IMG/VR virus record: IMGVR_UViG_3300042516_003674 | Location: 1-53,101 of that record | Length of the DNA: 53,101 nucleotides | Origin: a virus | Strand: one strand, 5' to 3' | Part shown: piece after piece, positions 2,932-8,349 of the stretch | Layout: every line of letters begins with the position of its first letter | Position numbering within the stretch: position 1 is the stretch's first letter | The notes under the pieces: generated by a model | The model's database searches: none | What the model was told of the DNA's origin: nothing | What the model saw: only the letters and a program-made list of their open reading frames with translations | Made by a program: the position numbers and the translations under genes

Positions 2932-3681
2932 GTGCCTATAAAAAGACCAATATCCAGATTCAAAAAAACTCTTACTAATCTTGCACAAACATCTCATTAT
3001 CAAGTGATAATGGATGTTCCCTACCCTGTGAGAAGATATTTGCTTGAAAGAGGTATTGATCCTTTTTTTATAACTGAAAGTGTGGGTATATTGTGCTCTT
3101 CTGCTGCTTTACCAGGAAGTTCCTTTGCAACATCAGATATTGTCGGTAATTTTACTGGTGTTGTTGAAAAAATGGCACATACAAGGTCTTTTACTCAAAT
3201 AGATCTTGAATTTTATGTAGATAAGGAATATAAAGTTCTAAAATTTTTAGAACATTGGATGGAATTCATATCCAGTGGTTCTAATGTTAATCCCGGTAAA
3301 GATGGTTATTATTTTAGGATGAAATATCCAATTGAGTATAAAACAAATCGTACAAGAATTATAAAATTTGATAGAGATTATAAGTCTGAGATAGAATATA
3401 CTTTTTTTGGATTATTTCCATTATCTCTTAACAGTATTGGAGTTTCTTATGATTCTTCGGGAATTTTAAAAGCAGGTGCAACCTTTAGTTTTGATAGGTA
3501 TGTTTGTGGTCCAATAACAAACTTTGATTTCTTTAAAAATATTAATTTTAATAACATAATAAACAGAGACACTAATCAAAGAACTGTATATAGAACAGGA
3601 CAGTCTCTTGGAAATGAAAGCGGTGTAAGACCTGTATTAATTCAACCAGGAAATGTTAATCCTACTGTATTAGTCAGATAA
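2932..3681 (+). CDS. 54: baseplate-tail tube initiator gp54
   Basis: This is a 249-residue protein with tail-tube/baseplate character: VIMDVPYPVRRYLLERGI, GILCSSAALPGSSFATSDI, then MAHTRSFTQIDLEFYVDKEYKVLKFLEHWMEFI. The tube-fold pattern and its position next to gp26 and opposite gp48/gp53 fit gp54, which starts tail-tube polymerisation; T4 gp54 is longer (320 aa). I use the GTG at 2932, because no in-frame ATG lies upstream and AAAGG at 2919-2923 is suitably spaced. The C-terminus (about residues 205-249) is poor in recognisable motifs. Confidence 0.72.
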   Translation: MPIKRPISRFKKTLTNLAQTSHYQVIMDVPYPVRRYLLERGIDPFFITESVGILCSSAALPGSSFATSDIVGNFTGVVEKMAHTRSFTQIDLEFYVDKEYKVLKFLEHWMEFISSGSNVNPGKDGYYFRMKYPIEYKTNRTRIIKFDRDYKSEIEYTFFGLFPLSLNSIGVSYDSSGILKAGATFSFDRYVCGPITNFDFFKNINFNNIINRDTNQRTVYRTGQSLGNESGVRPVLIQPGNVNPTVLVR

Positions 3682-3709: not shown

Positions 3710-4429
3710 ATGCCTTTACCAAAAGTTTCTACCCCAACTTATGAGTTGGAAATACCGTCAACTGGAAAAAAAATTACATATAGACCTTTCTTAGTTAAGG
3801 AAGAAAAGGTTCTTATTATTGCTATGGAAAGTGAAGATCAAAAGCAAATAACCAATGCGGTTAAAAACGTAATATCTAATTGTATTGTAACTAAGGGTAT
3901 TAAAGTAGAAAATCTTGCAACTTTTGATATTGAATACTTGTTTTTAAATATTCGCGGAAAATCAGTTGGAGAAACTGTTGAAGTTCTTGTAACTTGTCCG
4001 GATGATGGGGAAACAAAAATTCCTATTGAAATTAATCTAGATGATATTAAAGTACAATCTCATAAGGATCATAGTAAAGACATTAAACTTGATGAAAATC
4101 TCATTTTGAGAATGAAATATCCATCTATGAATGAATTTATTAAGAATAATTTTAATAATGTAAATGGAGTTTCAATTGATGAGACATTTGATTTGATTTG
4201 CTCTTGTATAGAGCAAGTTTATTCTGAAGAAGAATCTTGGTCTGCATCTGATTGCAGTAAAAAAGAACTGATAGATTTTCTTGATCAATTGTCTCCTAAT
4301 CAATTTAAGAGTATTGAGAAGTTTTTTGAAACAATGCCAAAACTTTCCCATACTATTAAATTCATAAATCCAAAGACTAAAGTTGAAAATGAAGTTGTTT
4401 TAGAAGGGTTACCTGATTTTTTCGTGTAG
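3710..4429 (+). CDS. 26: baseplate hub assembly protein gp26
   Basis: This 239-residue protein belongs to the T4 gp26 family of baseplate hub assembly proteins (T4 gp26 is 208 aa). It opens with LPKVSTPTYELEIPSTGKKITYRPFLVKEEKVLIIAMES, the family's best conserved block, followed by NCI...FDIEYLFLNIRGKSVGE. A Shine-Dalgarno-like TAGGA at 3701-3705 precedes the ATG. Its last codons read GAT TTT TTC GTG TAG, which contain a -1 slippery heptamer, and the -1 frame continues without a stop into the 57-codon ORF downstream. A second, longer product ending at 4605 is therefore likely. Confidence 0.85.
   Translation: MPLPKVSTPTYELEIPSTGKKITYRPFLVKEEKVLIIAMESEDQKQITNAVKNVISNCIVTKGIKVENLATFDIEYLFLNIRGKSVGETVEVLVTCPDDGETKIPIEINLDDIKVQSHKDHSKDIKLDENLILRMKYPSMNEFIKNNFNNVNGVSIDETFDLICSCIEQVYSEEESWSASDCSKKELIDFLDQLSPNQFKSIEKFFETMPKLSHTIKFINPKTKVENEVVLEGLPDFFV
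4417..4423 (+). promoter_or_regulatory. programmed -1 frameshift slippery site
   Basis: T TTT TTC spans the third base of Asp, then Phe TTT and Phe TTC, two codons before the gp26 stop. This is a perfect X XXY YYZ heptamer in the right phase. A one-base slip back gives TTT TTT CGT GTA GCT ATG GCG, which runs directly into the frame of the ORF at 4432. Both tRNAs would re-pair on UUU, which is favourable. No strong downstream pseudoknot was identified by eye. Confidence 0.65.
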
Positions 4430-4431
4430 CT

Positions 4432-4605
4432 ATGGCGCATGAGGATCTTGCGTCATATTATAAGGTAAACTTTGCTCTGATTCAGCACCATAAATATAGT
4501 TTGACAGAGTTAGAAGATATGATTCCTTGGGAGAGGGAGGTTTATCTTTCTTTTCTCCAACAATTTATTGAAGAAGAAAACTTAAAAAATAAGGTAAATG
4601 GTTGA
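4432..4605 (+). CDS. 57-codon ORF, probable frameshift extension of gp26
   Basis: The ATG here starts 57 codons in the -1 frame relative to gp26, and stops at 4603-4605 inside the start of the next gene. Its sequence (FALIQHHKYSLTELEDMIPWEREVYLSFLQQFIEEE) looks like the C-terminal part of tail-assembly chaperones, where an aromatic-rich segment and PWERE/PFELE motif precede a helix. Such extensions are usually made by frameshifting, as in lambda G/GT. Free initiation at this ATG is possible, but no clear ribosome-binding site precedes it. The tape-measure-like gene follows immediately, the position expected for a tail chaperone. Confidence 0.75.
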   Translation: MAHEDLASYYKVNFALIQHHKYSLTELEDMIPWEREVYLSFLQQFIEEENLKNKVNG

Positions 4606-6343
4606 GATCTCATCACCACTATCCAGAGAAAATAGAATTCAGATATCCAGATCTAGTAATATTTCCGGATTAGTAGGAGATAGGGCTTCCATATTATCTC
4701 AAAATCCAGTAGGTTCTCCGAGAAATACTGGACCAGATCCAGAAACATTAAAAATATTAGAAGCGAATCAAAATTCTTTAAATATTGTATCTTCAGGAAT
4801 AGTTTCTTTAAGGCAAAGACTTGATATTCTTTCAAGTTCTTTGTCTTCTTTATCATCTATTATAAGTAATAATACTATACTTGAAAATTTTAGAGAAAAC
4901 CAAAGAGCTGATCAAGAAAGAAGGCTTGCTGAGCAAGCAATTAGAGATGAATCTGAAGCAGCAATAGAAAGAAAAATTCAATCTTCTATTGGAAAACCCG
5001 TTCAAAATATTGCACAGAATACGACATCAAAATTAAATTCTTTGATGGGTGCATTTTCCAAATTATTCCTTGGGTGGTTAGGATTTCAAGGAATATCTTC
5101 TATACAATCACAAATATTTGGAAATTCTAAAAAGTTATCTTTTGTTAAAGAATTAGTATCAAATAGTCTCAGTACTGTAAAAAATGTGCTCTTAGGGATA
5201 AGAGATGGATTTGAAAATATAACATCTAAACTAGTAAATATTACATCTAAAGTTTCCAAGGTAGTAACGGGTGGATTAATTGTAAATCCATTCAAAGCTT
5301 TATTTCCAGGTAAATCTGTCGCAGCAAAGGCAGGAGCAGAAGGAGCAGAGGCAGTAGCAAAGGCAGCAACATCTGCAGGGTCTGATGTAGCATCAAAAAC
5401 TGGAGCAGAAGCAGCAGAAGCATTAACGAAGGCAGGAACATCTGCAGGGTCTGATGTAGCATCAAAAACTGGAGCAGAAGCAGCAGAAGCAGTAACAAAA
5501 GGTGGATTGTTGAAATCTGGTGCTAAAAGACTTGTACCTCTTGCAAATATTCCAATAAGCGCATATTTTGCTCAAAAAAATTTGAAAGAAGGTGATATTC
5601 TCGGTGCTGGATTTGATGTTGGTGGGATGTTTCCTGGACTTTTAGGATGGGCTTCTTTAGGTGGTGGCGCTTTGTATGAAACTATGACCAAGGGTGGAAT
5701 AAAAGGTATTCCAAATATGTCGGATATATTTAAGAATCAATCGCAAAATTCTACACCTACTTCCAGTTCTTCAACATCTACGGATCAACAAATATCCAGT
5801 AATATAACTTCTTCACAAAATAGTTTGGTTGAATCATCAACTGAACAAATGCCAATAATTTCTCCAGAGCAGATATCTTTAGGATCAGAAAAAATTGCTG
5901 AGCAAGTTACTCCTAAGGCAAATCTTGCATTTAATTTTGGTGAACAAATAACTAATATTAATAATAAAGTATTTTCAACTTCTAATGATGAAAATCAAAA
6001 TCTTGCTATGTCTATGCCATCTATTTTAGGTATGAAAGAAGAATCTAAAATGGAAGACTCTAAGTATTCTGAATATTTAGAATCACCTAATGAAAAACCT
6101 AATATAGATTCTATTCAAAAATCATCACCTATTGTTGAAAATATTCCCAAAAAAGAACCTTCGATTGGACCTACTACAAAGTCTCAACCAAATATTATTG
6201 TTACTCCAATACCACAAAATCAACAAACTACACAAAGATCTTCGCCATCGTCAGGTCCTGCAAGTGATGTCCCAGCAATTCCATCATCTAATGCTGAGAA
6301 TTTTTATGCATTGTATTCAAAAGTACATTATAATATAGTATAA
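4598..6343 (+). CDS. tape-measure/hub-like structural protein 1
   Basis: This is a 581-residue protein with no named family that I can assign. Residues about 45-140 are predicted helical with heptad-like Leu/Ile/Ser runs and an ENQRADQERRLAEQAIRDESEAAIERK coiled coil. A hydrophobic KLFLGWLGFQGISSI segment follows (about 150-170). Next come tandem Ala/Glu repeats (about 237-300), a Gly-rich hydrophobic stretch (GAGFDVGGMFPGLLGWASLGGGALY) and a long Ser/Gln/Pro-rich tail. Location after gp26 and before the hub genes, plus the coiled-coil/hydrophobic layout, fits a T4 gp29-type tape measure or hub rod. Its size is near T4 gp29 (590 aa), but the match is by context. Confidence 0.6.
   Translation: MVEISSPLSRENRIQISRSSNISGLVGDRASILSQNPVGSPRNTGPDPETLKILEANQNSLNIVSSGIVSLRQRLDILSSSLSSLSSIISNNTILENFRENQRADQERRLAEQAIRDESEAAIERKIQSSIGKPVQNIAQNTTSKLNSLMGAFSKLFLGWLGFQGISSIQSQIFGNSKKLSFVKELVSNSLSTVKNVLLGIRDGFENITSKLVNITSKVSKVVTGGLIVNPFKALFPGKSVAAKAGAEGAEAVAKAATSAGSDVASKTGAEAAEALTKAGTSAGSDVASKTGAEAAEAVTKGGLLKSGAKRLVPLANIPISAYFAQKNLKEGDILGAGFDVGGMFPGLLGWASLGGGALYETMTKGGIKGIPNMSDIFKNQSQNSTPTSSSSTSTDQQISSNITSSQNSLVESSTEQMPIISPEQISLGSEKIAEQVTPKANLAFNFGEQITNINNKVFSTSNDENQNLAMSMPSILGMKEESKMEDSKYSEYLESPNEKPNIDSIQKSSPIVENIPKKEPSIGPTTKSQPNIIVTPIPQNQQTTQRSSPSSGPASDVPAIPSSNAENFYALYSKVHYNIV
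5310..5500 (+). repeat. 69-bp tandem repeat inside tape-measure-like gene
   Basis: A unit encoding GAEAAEALTKAGTSAGSDVASKT is repeated about 2.5 times with a 69-base period. A stretch starting at 5369 recurs, essentially unchanged for about 54 bases, at 5438. In a tape-measure-type gene an in-frame repeat of this kind would change protein length in 23-residue steps. Confidence 0.75.
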
Positions 6344-6345
6344 AA

Positions 6346-8349
6346 ATGGCAACAAAAAATTTACTTTACAAATCTCTCATAAATGTTAGGAATATTACTA
6401 AGGAAGTTTTTTCTTTAAGTAACGAAGCGAATAATTCAAATAAGTATGTCGCAAAAATTGGAAAAAATGTAAATCAGAATACGACTTTAAAGAGAAAATC
6501 TATAATATCAGATTCAGTGTTGTATAGAAGAAAAGTTGAGTCGGTAAGAAGAAAAAAACAAGAAGGAATTATAGAATTATCAAAAGTTGGATCTATATTT
6601 AAAGCTCCCGGTAAAGCGTTGGCTGATACTGGGCAAGGAATTTTAAGCAGAATTATGAATGTTGCTGGTACAGTTATGGCGGGTTGGTTAGTTTATAATT
6701 TACCAACAATTGCAGGAATGGCACAGGAGTTAACCGCTAGAGTGTTTAGATTGACACAAATATTGGGAACATTTTTACCAAATATTACATCGGGATTTTC
6801 TAGCTTTGGTGAACTAATAGGAGCCTATGCGCAAAATTTTGTAAGTCTTGATTTCAAAGATAGTAAGGGTAGAGTTGAAAAAGCTATGATAAATCTCCAG
6901 AATTCTTTTTCTGGAATGTCTACATCTTTTGATGAAGTTTTAATGTTAATCACCACACCATTGACAGAACCATTAGAAGGTCCGGGAGCACCTCCATTTA
7001 ATACTGATTACAGTAAACAGGGTCAAGGGGGAACTGCTTTACCTGACCAAAATAGTCCCGAAATGTATCGAATTGCTGCTGCATTGTCTACGGAAGGTAG
7101 TGGGGCACAATCATCCGCAGATATGATGCAAGTAGTTGTGAACAGAAAAGCAACGGGAAGATATGGTGCAACATATACAGATATTCTTGCAGCTCCTAGT
7201 CAATTTGCTGGAGTCAGTCAGGCAAGGAGTGCCTCTTCTTTTAAGAAAATTCAGACATTAAAAGATGCATCAAAATGGTCGGGTCAAAGTGAAAATACTC
7301 TTTTAGGAATCATTAAAAATATTCAAGATCCAACATTGCAAGCAAACGCGGCAAAACATGTTGGTGGTGCTTTAGAGTTTAGAGCTCAACCGGGATACTA
7401 TAAAAAATATGGACTAGTTCGTGGAGAAATGGGTCCAGATGGAAGATTTTACAATTCTGCTTGGCGTGGTGGTCCAGGAGATAATCAATTCCTCAAAGAT
7501 CCCAAAAAAGATCCTATTAGACCAGAGGGTCCAGCTTCTTTTAATTTACCTGAACCAATACAACCGCCATCATCAAAAACAACACCATCCCCAAGATCAG
7601 CACCTCCAGTAAATAATTTGGAATTAATTCCACAAACTGGGAAAGGAGGATTTGTTCAGGGTGGGTCCAGTGCTCCCGGAAACGAATTGACATATGCAAC
7701 TCACTTTCACGTAGATTTAAAAACTCCAAATTATACTGCAGAGGGACTGGCAAGAATTCGTGAAGTTGCTTTTCAGGCAGTAAAAGCTATGCAGGCAAGA
7801 GGATCATATGTAACTTTTGGAAATATACCTGGATATCCTGTTGCAAGTAAAAATGATTCTACGTTAAGATCTCAAATTTTACAAGAACAACAAGGGCATA
7901 GGTCTAGAAGTAGTCCCGGAATTGATCTTCAAGAACACAATTCCAATATCCAAAGAACATTTCCTTCCCAACCAGGATCTAAAACTAAGTTTCCTTTTGC
8001 TGTTGGTTCTGTTTACTGGAGAAAAGGATATGGAAGGGAGGCAGAAATTATTGGATCTGGTGGAGTTACTGTTTCTCACGGTGCTCCAGGATCATCTTCC
8101 AGTGAAATTCAATCTCCACCAAAGCCAGCCCCAGCACAAATACAAGCAAAACCAAGACCATCAATTTCCGACAGAATATCTAAACCTCAAGAAACTGAAT
8201 CTTACGTTGTTCCGTTTATATATCCTCAACAACAAGTGCAACAGGCAGCTCCTCCATCGATGTTTTTACAACAGCAAAGTTTTGGGGTTAATAGTTCGTT
8301 AAATAGTTTTATCGATAAAAAAATACTTTTAGATTTGGCTTATACCTAA
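6346..8349 (+). CDS. tail/hub protein with SleB-type cell wall hydrolase domain
   Basis: This 667-residue protein starts with a basic helical region and a hydrophobic GWLVYNLPTIAG segment (about residues 106-125) resembling the one in the preceding gene. Residues about 235-385 match SleB/CwlJ-type hydrolases: AAALSTEGSG with the probable catalytic Glu, a VVVNRK helix, YTDILAAPSQF and a Gly/Tyr-rich end. A third segment (about 445-590) has THFHVD and SPGIDLQEH, reminiscent of a metal-binding peptidase fold but not assigned. The rest is Pro/Gln-rich linker. It probably supplies the wall-cutting activity that T4 carries in the gp5 lysozyme. It ends in TAATG, coupled to the next gene. Confidence 0.72.
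   Translation: MATKNLLYKSLINVRNITKEVFSLSNEANNSNKYVAKIGKNVNQNTTLKRKSIISDSVLYRRKVESVRRKKQEGIIELSKVGSIFKAPGKALADTGQGILSRIMNVAGTVMAGWLVYNLPTIAGMAQELTARVFRLTQILGTFLPNITSGFSSFGELIGAYAQNFVSLDFKDSKGRVEKAMINLQNSFSGMSTSFDEVLMLITTPLTEPLEGPGAPPFNTDYSKQGQGGTALPDQNSPEMYRIAAALSTEGSGAQSSADMMQVVVNRKATGRYGATYTDILAAPSQFAGVSQARSASSFKKIQTLKDASKWSGQSENTLLGIIKNIQDPTLQANAAKHVGGALEFRAQPGYYKKYGLVRGEMGPDGRFYNSAWRGGPGDNQFLKDPKKDPIRPEGPASFNLPEPIQPPSSKTTPSPRSAPPVNNLELIPQTGKGGFVQGGSSAPGNELTYATHFHVDLKTPNYTAEGLARIREVAFQAVKAMQARGSYVTFGNIPGYPVASKNDSTLRSQILQEQQGHRSRSSPGIDLQEHNSNIQRTFPSQPGSKTKFPFAVGSVYWRKGYGREAEIIGSGGVTVSHGAPGSSSSEIQSPPKPAPAQIQAKPRPSISDRISKPQETESYVVPFIYPQQQVQQAAPPSMFLQQQSFGVNSSLNSFIDKKILLDLAYT

Follow-up and report, generated by a model that had tools for sequence, protein, structure and literature searches.

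A probable programmed -1 frameshift joins gp26 to the gp51 domain in a T4-like, cyanophage-like virus

Downstream of gp26 in this virus lies a 57-codon ORF of the type annotated as gene 51, and the question is whether it is a gene of its own or the end of a longer gp26 made by frameshifting. The window is the whole stretch of viral DNA that was analysed, 53,101 nucleotides, and the features of the locus are listed in Table 1. By direct reading, the 3' end of gp26 (4415-4429) is GAT TTT TTC GTG TAG. The heptamer T_TTT_TTC is in phase with gp26, and one sense codon (GTG) separates it from the TAG. After a -1 slip both tRNA-Phe can re-pair (TTT TTC to TTT TTT), the second one through a G-U wobble. 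From there the -1 frame encodes FF RVA MAHEDLASYYK..., joins the 57-codon ORF (4432-4605) with no stop in between and runs to the stop codon at 4603-4605. The predicted gp26-gp51 fusion consists of gp26 residues 1-238 plus 60 residues, 298 residues in total, and DFFRVAMAHEDL would be its diagnostic fusion peptide. The original prediction had named both the heptamer just 5' of the gp26 stop and the -1 frame open into the ORF at 4432, and both are confirmed by direct reading, the heptamer at 4417-4423 and in phase.

Table 1. Features of the gp26-gp51 locus (window coordinates)
Feature	Position	Strand	Evidence
Tail tube / tube-initiator protein, lambda V-like position	2932..3681	+	PF23849 Phage_TTP_2 E=2e-16; phrog_45 E=8.9e-35
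gp26, predicted short chaperone form (TAC-N, lambda G-like), 239 aa	3710..4429	+	PF12322, phrog_150, AF2 model
GAAGGG, SD-like purine motif, possible stimulator	4403..4408	+	8 nt upstream of heptamer; codon-choice enrichment
Slippery heptamer T_TTT_TTC	4417..4423	+	Direct reading; T_TTT_TTC or T_TTT_TTT in 174/174 relatives
-1 frame extension, 60 aa after FF, gp51/TAC-C domain	4423..4605	+	phrog_634, phrog_150 C-terminus, open frame
gp26 stop TAG, used by non-shifting ribosomes	4427..4429	+	Direct reading
Stem-loop 5 nt 3' of heptamer, likely 3' stimulator	4429..4459 (arms 4429-4439, 4449-4459)	+	Covariation
581-aa ORF overlapping extension end, candidate tape-measure protein	4598..6343	+	Position only

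Conservation of the site was surveyed at two depths. A gp26 search of IMG/VR supplied 80 loci, which together with the window make up the 81 close loci; they were picked by gp26 peptides upstream of the heptamer, not by the heptamer itself. Further scans added 107 loci, and the wider set comprises 174 readable non-T4 loci down to about 30% identity. The T4 gp51 query yielded 10 loci and the nt-1 gp26 query two; a scan with a 207E48-like gp26 query yielded none. The pattern xxT TTT TTC NNN stop is present in 81/81 close loci; in each, as far as the contig extends, no stop interrupts the -1 frame on the way into the gp51 domain. The wider set has T_TTT_TTC in 160/174 loci and T_TTT_TTT in 14/174, at a distance of 0-8 codons from the stop. 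The extension is open in all complete relatives, with a length of 57-73 aa. Alignment of this junction in relatives had been proposed as a check, and the heptamer class and the open -1 frame are kept in 174/174. A chance origin of the heptamer is excluded by this conservation across relatives. The programmed -1 frameshift of the original prediction is thus well supported by conservation of heptamer and frame, and on sequence grounds a frameshift at the gp26 end is near certain.

The closest named phages are P-SSM2 and P-SSM5, with about 76% DNA identity over 881 bp. Among named isolates, the heptamer is found in S-PM2, P-SSM2, Vibrio nt-1, D486, Stenotrophomonas Mendera and Cronobacter LPCS28, and likewise in Aeromonas 65, OLIVR6, IG49, pf16, phiM12, Mosig and S-CREM2; phiM9 has the variant T_TTT_TTG. 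The distance from heptamer to stop is about 8 codons, rather than 0-1, at some loci (L137, L163, L182, L183, L185, L197 and L086; pelagiphage Mosig is among them), and the 0-frame and -1-frame peptides overlap for longer. The slippery heptamer is missing from the gp26 homologues of two Ackermannviridae-like Vibrio phages, K448 and 207E48, which read CTTTTC/CTTTTT instead. There the downstream ORF overlaps the stop as TAATG (K448, positions 2160-2176 of L096; 207E48, positions 2714-2730 of L099). These two phages may have swapped frameshifting for stop-restart.

Translation through the slip site bears on how the gp51 domain is reached. In the -1 frame FF is followed by Arg in 80/81 close loci and then by Val, Ile or Leu in 81/81, while the 0-frame residue at the same place varies (Ala, Gly, Val, Glu, Ser). 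A nearly constant Arg against a variable 0-frame residue indicates selection on the -1 frame already upstream of any ATG. This does not fit well with a separate gene 51 that starts from its own ATG at 4432 by stop-restart, 2 nt past the gp26 stop. Such a gene is annotated in P-SSM2, S-PM2 and others, its own frame is the -1 frame, and an ATG occupies this place in 71/81 close loci. However, the first -1-frame ATGs, found in 79 close loci (71 at the usual place and eight three codons later), are preceded by an SD-like motif in 0/79, and the ATG at 4432 is buried within the stem-loop. The codons before it are conserved in the -1 frame and not in frame 0, and the invariant heptamer is left unexplained. 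Moreover, in 35 of 136 distinct loci (about a quarter) none of the nine codons that follow FF is ATG, GTG or TTG, and these start-less loci keep the conserved residues in those nine codons, e.g. ALSHDSLENYYKTNF. Given the start-less loci, the missing SD-like motif and the conserved -1 residues, separate initiation cannot be the general route to the gp51 domain. We consider a separate gene very unlikely, and some separate initiation could coexist with frameshifting. What cyanophage records list as 'gp51' is most likely no independent gene; it would be the frameshifted C-terminal part of gp26, and hundreds of annotations would have to be changed to a joined coding sequence. In Cronobacter phage LPCS28 (positions 2220-2387 of L094) and Aeromonas phage 65 (positions 2702-2869 of L095), the conserved extension is unannotated and has no start codon near its beginning.

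The T run could also act at the level of transcription, with slippage producing mixed mRNAs instead of ribosomal frameshifting. A T6 tract is present, with T7 in the 14 loci that have T_TTT_TTT, but its length stays at six, with no lengthening of the run, in the other 160 of 174. Slippage on a run of six T is expected to be rare. The X_XXY_YYZ pattern is in ribosomal phase, and in close relatives it has a stem-loop at the usual spacing. We consider slippage very unlikely.

Codon use at the heptamer is constrained beyond the protein sequence. Its two Phe columns are the only Phe columns of gp26 with a fully fixed codon (TTT in 81/81, then TTC in 81/81), while the gene background for Phe codons is 76% TTT. 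The codon before this pair ends in T in 81/81 despite encoding five amino acids, and it is the sole xxT-fixed column across differing residues in gp26. The naive joint probability of the fixed codons is about 1e-80; it ignores relatedness, so only the contrast with other gp26 columns is usable. A protein requirement for Phe-Phe with the heptamer arising by chance in an AT-rich gene can practically be dismissed. In its favour, both Phe residues are conserved in the protein (invariant columns F237/F238) and Phe is mostly encoded by TTT. Against it, all other gp26 Phe columns lack an invariant codon, the second codon is always TTC where the background share of TTC is 24%, and the T ending of the preceding codon is kept across five amino acids.

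Programmed frameshifting at the heptamer may be helped by elements on both sides. In the window's clade the downstream stem has 11 bp and pairs alignment columns 13-23 with 33-43. Of the stem cells, 93.4% are paired; the rows were mostly chosen by stem formation, which inflates this percentage and not the type of covariation. Among distinct rows, pair 21-35 is U-A in 29, G-C in 14 and A-U in 8. None of 500 shuffles reached as high a covariation score, and the signal is lost when the partner is shifted by 1-3 columns. The covarying base in column 35 falls on the second position of a codon (Glu/Ala/Val), which means that pairing and protein sequence change together. RNAalifold recovers the stem unaided, and the P-SSM2 stem-loop stands out clearly from shuffles (z -2.69). 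As a single sequence, the window's downstream 80 nt fold no more strongly than shuffled ones (z -0.35), and the case for the stem-loop is therefore made by covariation and not by folding energy. Farther from the window's clade the element is weak or missing. A search of Rfam at the site gave no family and one chance match.

Upstream, a conserved Glu-Gly pair is encoded as GAGGGN or GAAGGG more commonly than expected in the 81 close loci. The Glu codon is GAG in 67/81 against a background of 30%, the highest among 22 Glu columns, and the Gly codon is GGG in 28%, the highest among 5 Gly columns. GAA co-occurs with GGG (Fisher p=2e-5, a value that ignores relatedness). SD-like motifs upstream of a slip site stimulate frameshifting in dnaX, and a similar role for this codon bias is a suggestion. 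We hold it tentatively, at somewhat less than even odds, that frameshifting in the window's clade has a two-sided stimulatory signal, the upstream SD-like motif and the covarying 11-bp stem-loop that hides the gp51 start, and that other T4-like clades use the heptamer alone. If the heptamer suffices for shifting in those clades, the signal would have been retuned from lineage to lineage of one chaperone, and the short:long ratio perhaps with it. The covarying stem-loop is a directly testable stimulator, and the cultured phage P-SSM2 carries the same element. We found no published description of the stem-loop, the SD-like enrichment or the start-codon analysis, with the 2022 work on T4-like frameshifting discussed below represented by papers that cite it.

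We propose that most ribosomes would stop at 4427 and yield the 239-aa short chaperone gp26. A minority would slip -1 on T_TTT_TTC with tRNA-Phe in both the P and A sites, probably aided by the downstream stem-loop and perhaps by the upstream GAAGGG. These shifted ribosomes would read 60 more codons and yield a minor 298-aa gp26-gp51 fusion. In a chaperone pair like lambda G/GT, the gp26 domain would coat the tape-measure protein and the extension would recruit tail-tube subunits. We give this reading as a whole, a -1 frameshift that yields gp26 and a minor fusion as a G/GT-like chaperone pair for the tape-measure protein, a probability of about 0.92. The occurrence of the shift, its efficiency and the chaperone activity are what we infer from sequence comparison. 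The G/GT-like role claimed by the original prediction finds good support in homology to T4 gp26/gp51 and in gene order, from which the chaperone function is predicted.

gp26 matches PF12322 (T4_baseplate) with E=2.5e-74 and phrog_150 (baseplate hub) with E=8.3e-82. The 57-codon ORF matches positions 60-113 of phrog_634 'baseplate hub assembly catalyst' (gp51) with E=3.9e-25. A second match, to the C-terminal end of phrog_150, shows that some phages have gp26 and gp51 as one protein. The 581-aa ORF has no match in Pfam or PHROG, and its position is that of the tape-measure-like gene in phiM12. It contains a 69-bp in-frame tandem repeat (window 5333-5499, 2.4 copies, 91% match); in a candidate tape-measure protein such repeats would alter the length of the tail. 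The next ORF (window 6346-8349, 667 aa) weakly matches both the PF07486 cell-wall hydrolase (E=0.0028) and endolysin PHROGs; it is a candidate virion-borne lysin.

The AF2 model of the window's gp26 has a pLDDT of 85.9, and a T4-like gp51 model, folded as a natural long form, 92.8. Fold searches of the PDB with these two models returned nothing significant. The top match of gp26 is the HK97 tail assembly chaperone 2OB9 (E=2.0, prob 0.51, 62 columns, 3.0 Å), so a relation between these folds, as judged from the model, is suggestive only. The phrog_11820 tail assembly chaperone matches the locus weakly (E=0.042). A PDB sequence search returned no relatives and NCBIfam nothing. Among BFVD viral models, the long form (model m35afdff67748) matches gp26/gp51 proteins and, weakly, the 'tape measure chaperone' of Citrobacter phage Moon. 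Proteins of Campylobacter phages CP220, F379 and F361 have the same predicted fold as the long form in BFVD.

T4 itself carries the two forms differently. T4 gp26 (208 aa) and gp51 (249 aa) both belong to PF12322 (E 8.8e-64 and 3.9e-52), and residues 147-246 of gp51 correspond to phrog_634 positions 2-103, with the extension at the C-terminus. T4 gp51 therefore resembles the cyanophage long form, a PF12322 domain with the same extension. Because gp26 and gp51 share PF12322 and gp51 has the extension, T4 encodes the short and long forms as two separate, divergent genes, and a frameshift is not needed. No heptamer was found near the end of T4-type gp51. The original prediction remarked that T4 is not listed among frameshifting phages; this holds for the frameshift itself, but not for the chaperone pair, which T4 has as gp26 and gp51. 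In a maximum-likelihood tree T4-type 26 and 51 group together (98/96), apart from all single-gene phages. This tree is unrooted, with long branches and unsettled bootstrap, and lends moderate support to one 26/51 duplication in the T4 branch. A T4 review describes gp26 and gp51 as hub assembly chaperones, gp51 being required and absent from the virion (PMC3004832). Cyanophage gp51 matches the C-terminal fifth only of T4 gp51 (PMC3037559). The place of T4 gp26/gp51 in the hub has been disputed, and the chaperone reading favours a role for the two in tail assembly.

The locus resembles lambda G/GT in that a predicted -1 slip close to the 3' end of the short ORF, downstream of a tail-tube gene and upstream of a gene that by position is a candidate tape-measure gene, would produce a minor C-terminally extended form. 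The lambda heptamer is G_GGA_AAG, whereas here it is T_TTT_TTC, and no sequence or fold match reached significance. Frameshifting is reportedly conserved, it appears, in several T4-like groups, and T4 is said to use genes 26 and 51. As represented in later papers, such systems were described earlier (Vladimirov, Gautam & Davidson, Virology 2022), so the present locus is an instance of it and a further well-supported example. What makes the locus of interest is its clade-specific stem-loop and how widely the site was surveyed, rather than the phenomenon itself. The PRFect paper (PMC10885494) cites the 2022 work for T4-like phages that have a short gene and a fused long gene with no frameshifting, and the Adele paper (PMC12846349) cites it for poly-T slippery sites in the TAC-N genes of T4-like phages. 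As far as these citations describe it, that system involves the same genes 26 and 51, with the same contrast between a frameshift and the separate genes of T4. A conserved -1 frameshift at a T-rich GTTTTT at the TAC-N end is also present in the Vandenendeviridae / Andersonviridae locus (phage Adele, PMC12846349), although these are other phage families than that of the window's virus.
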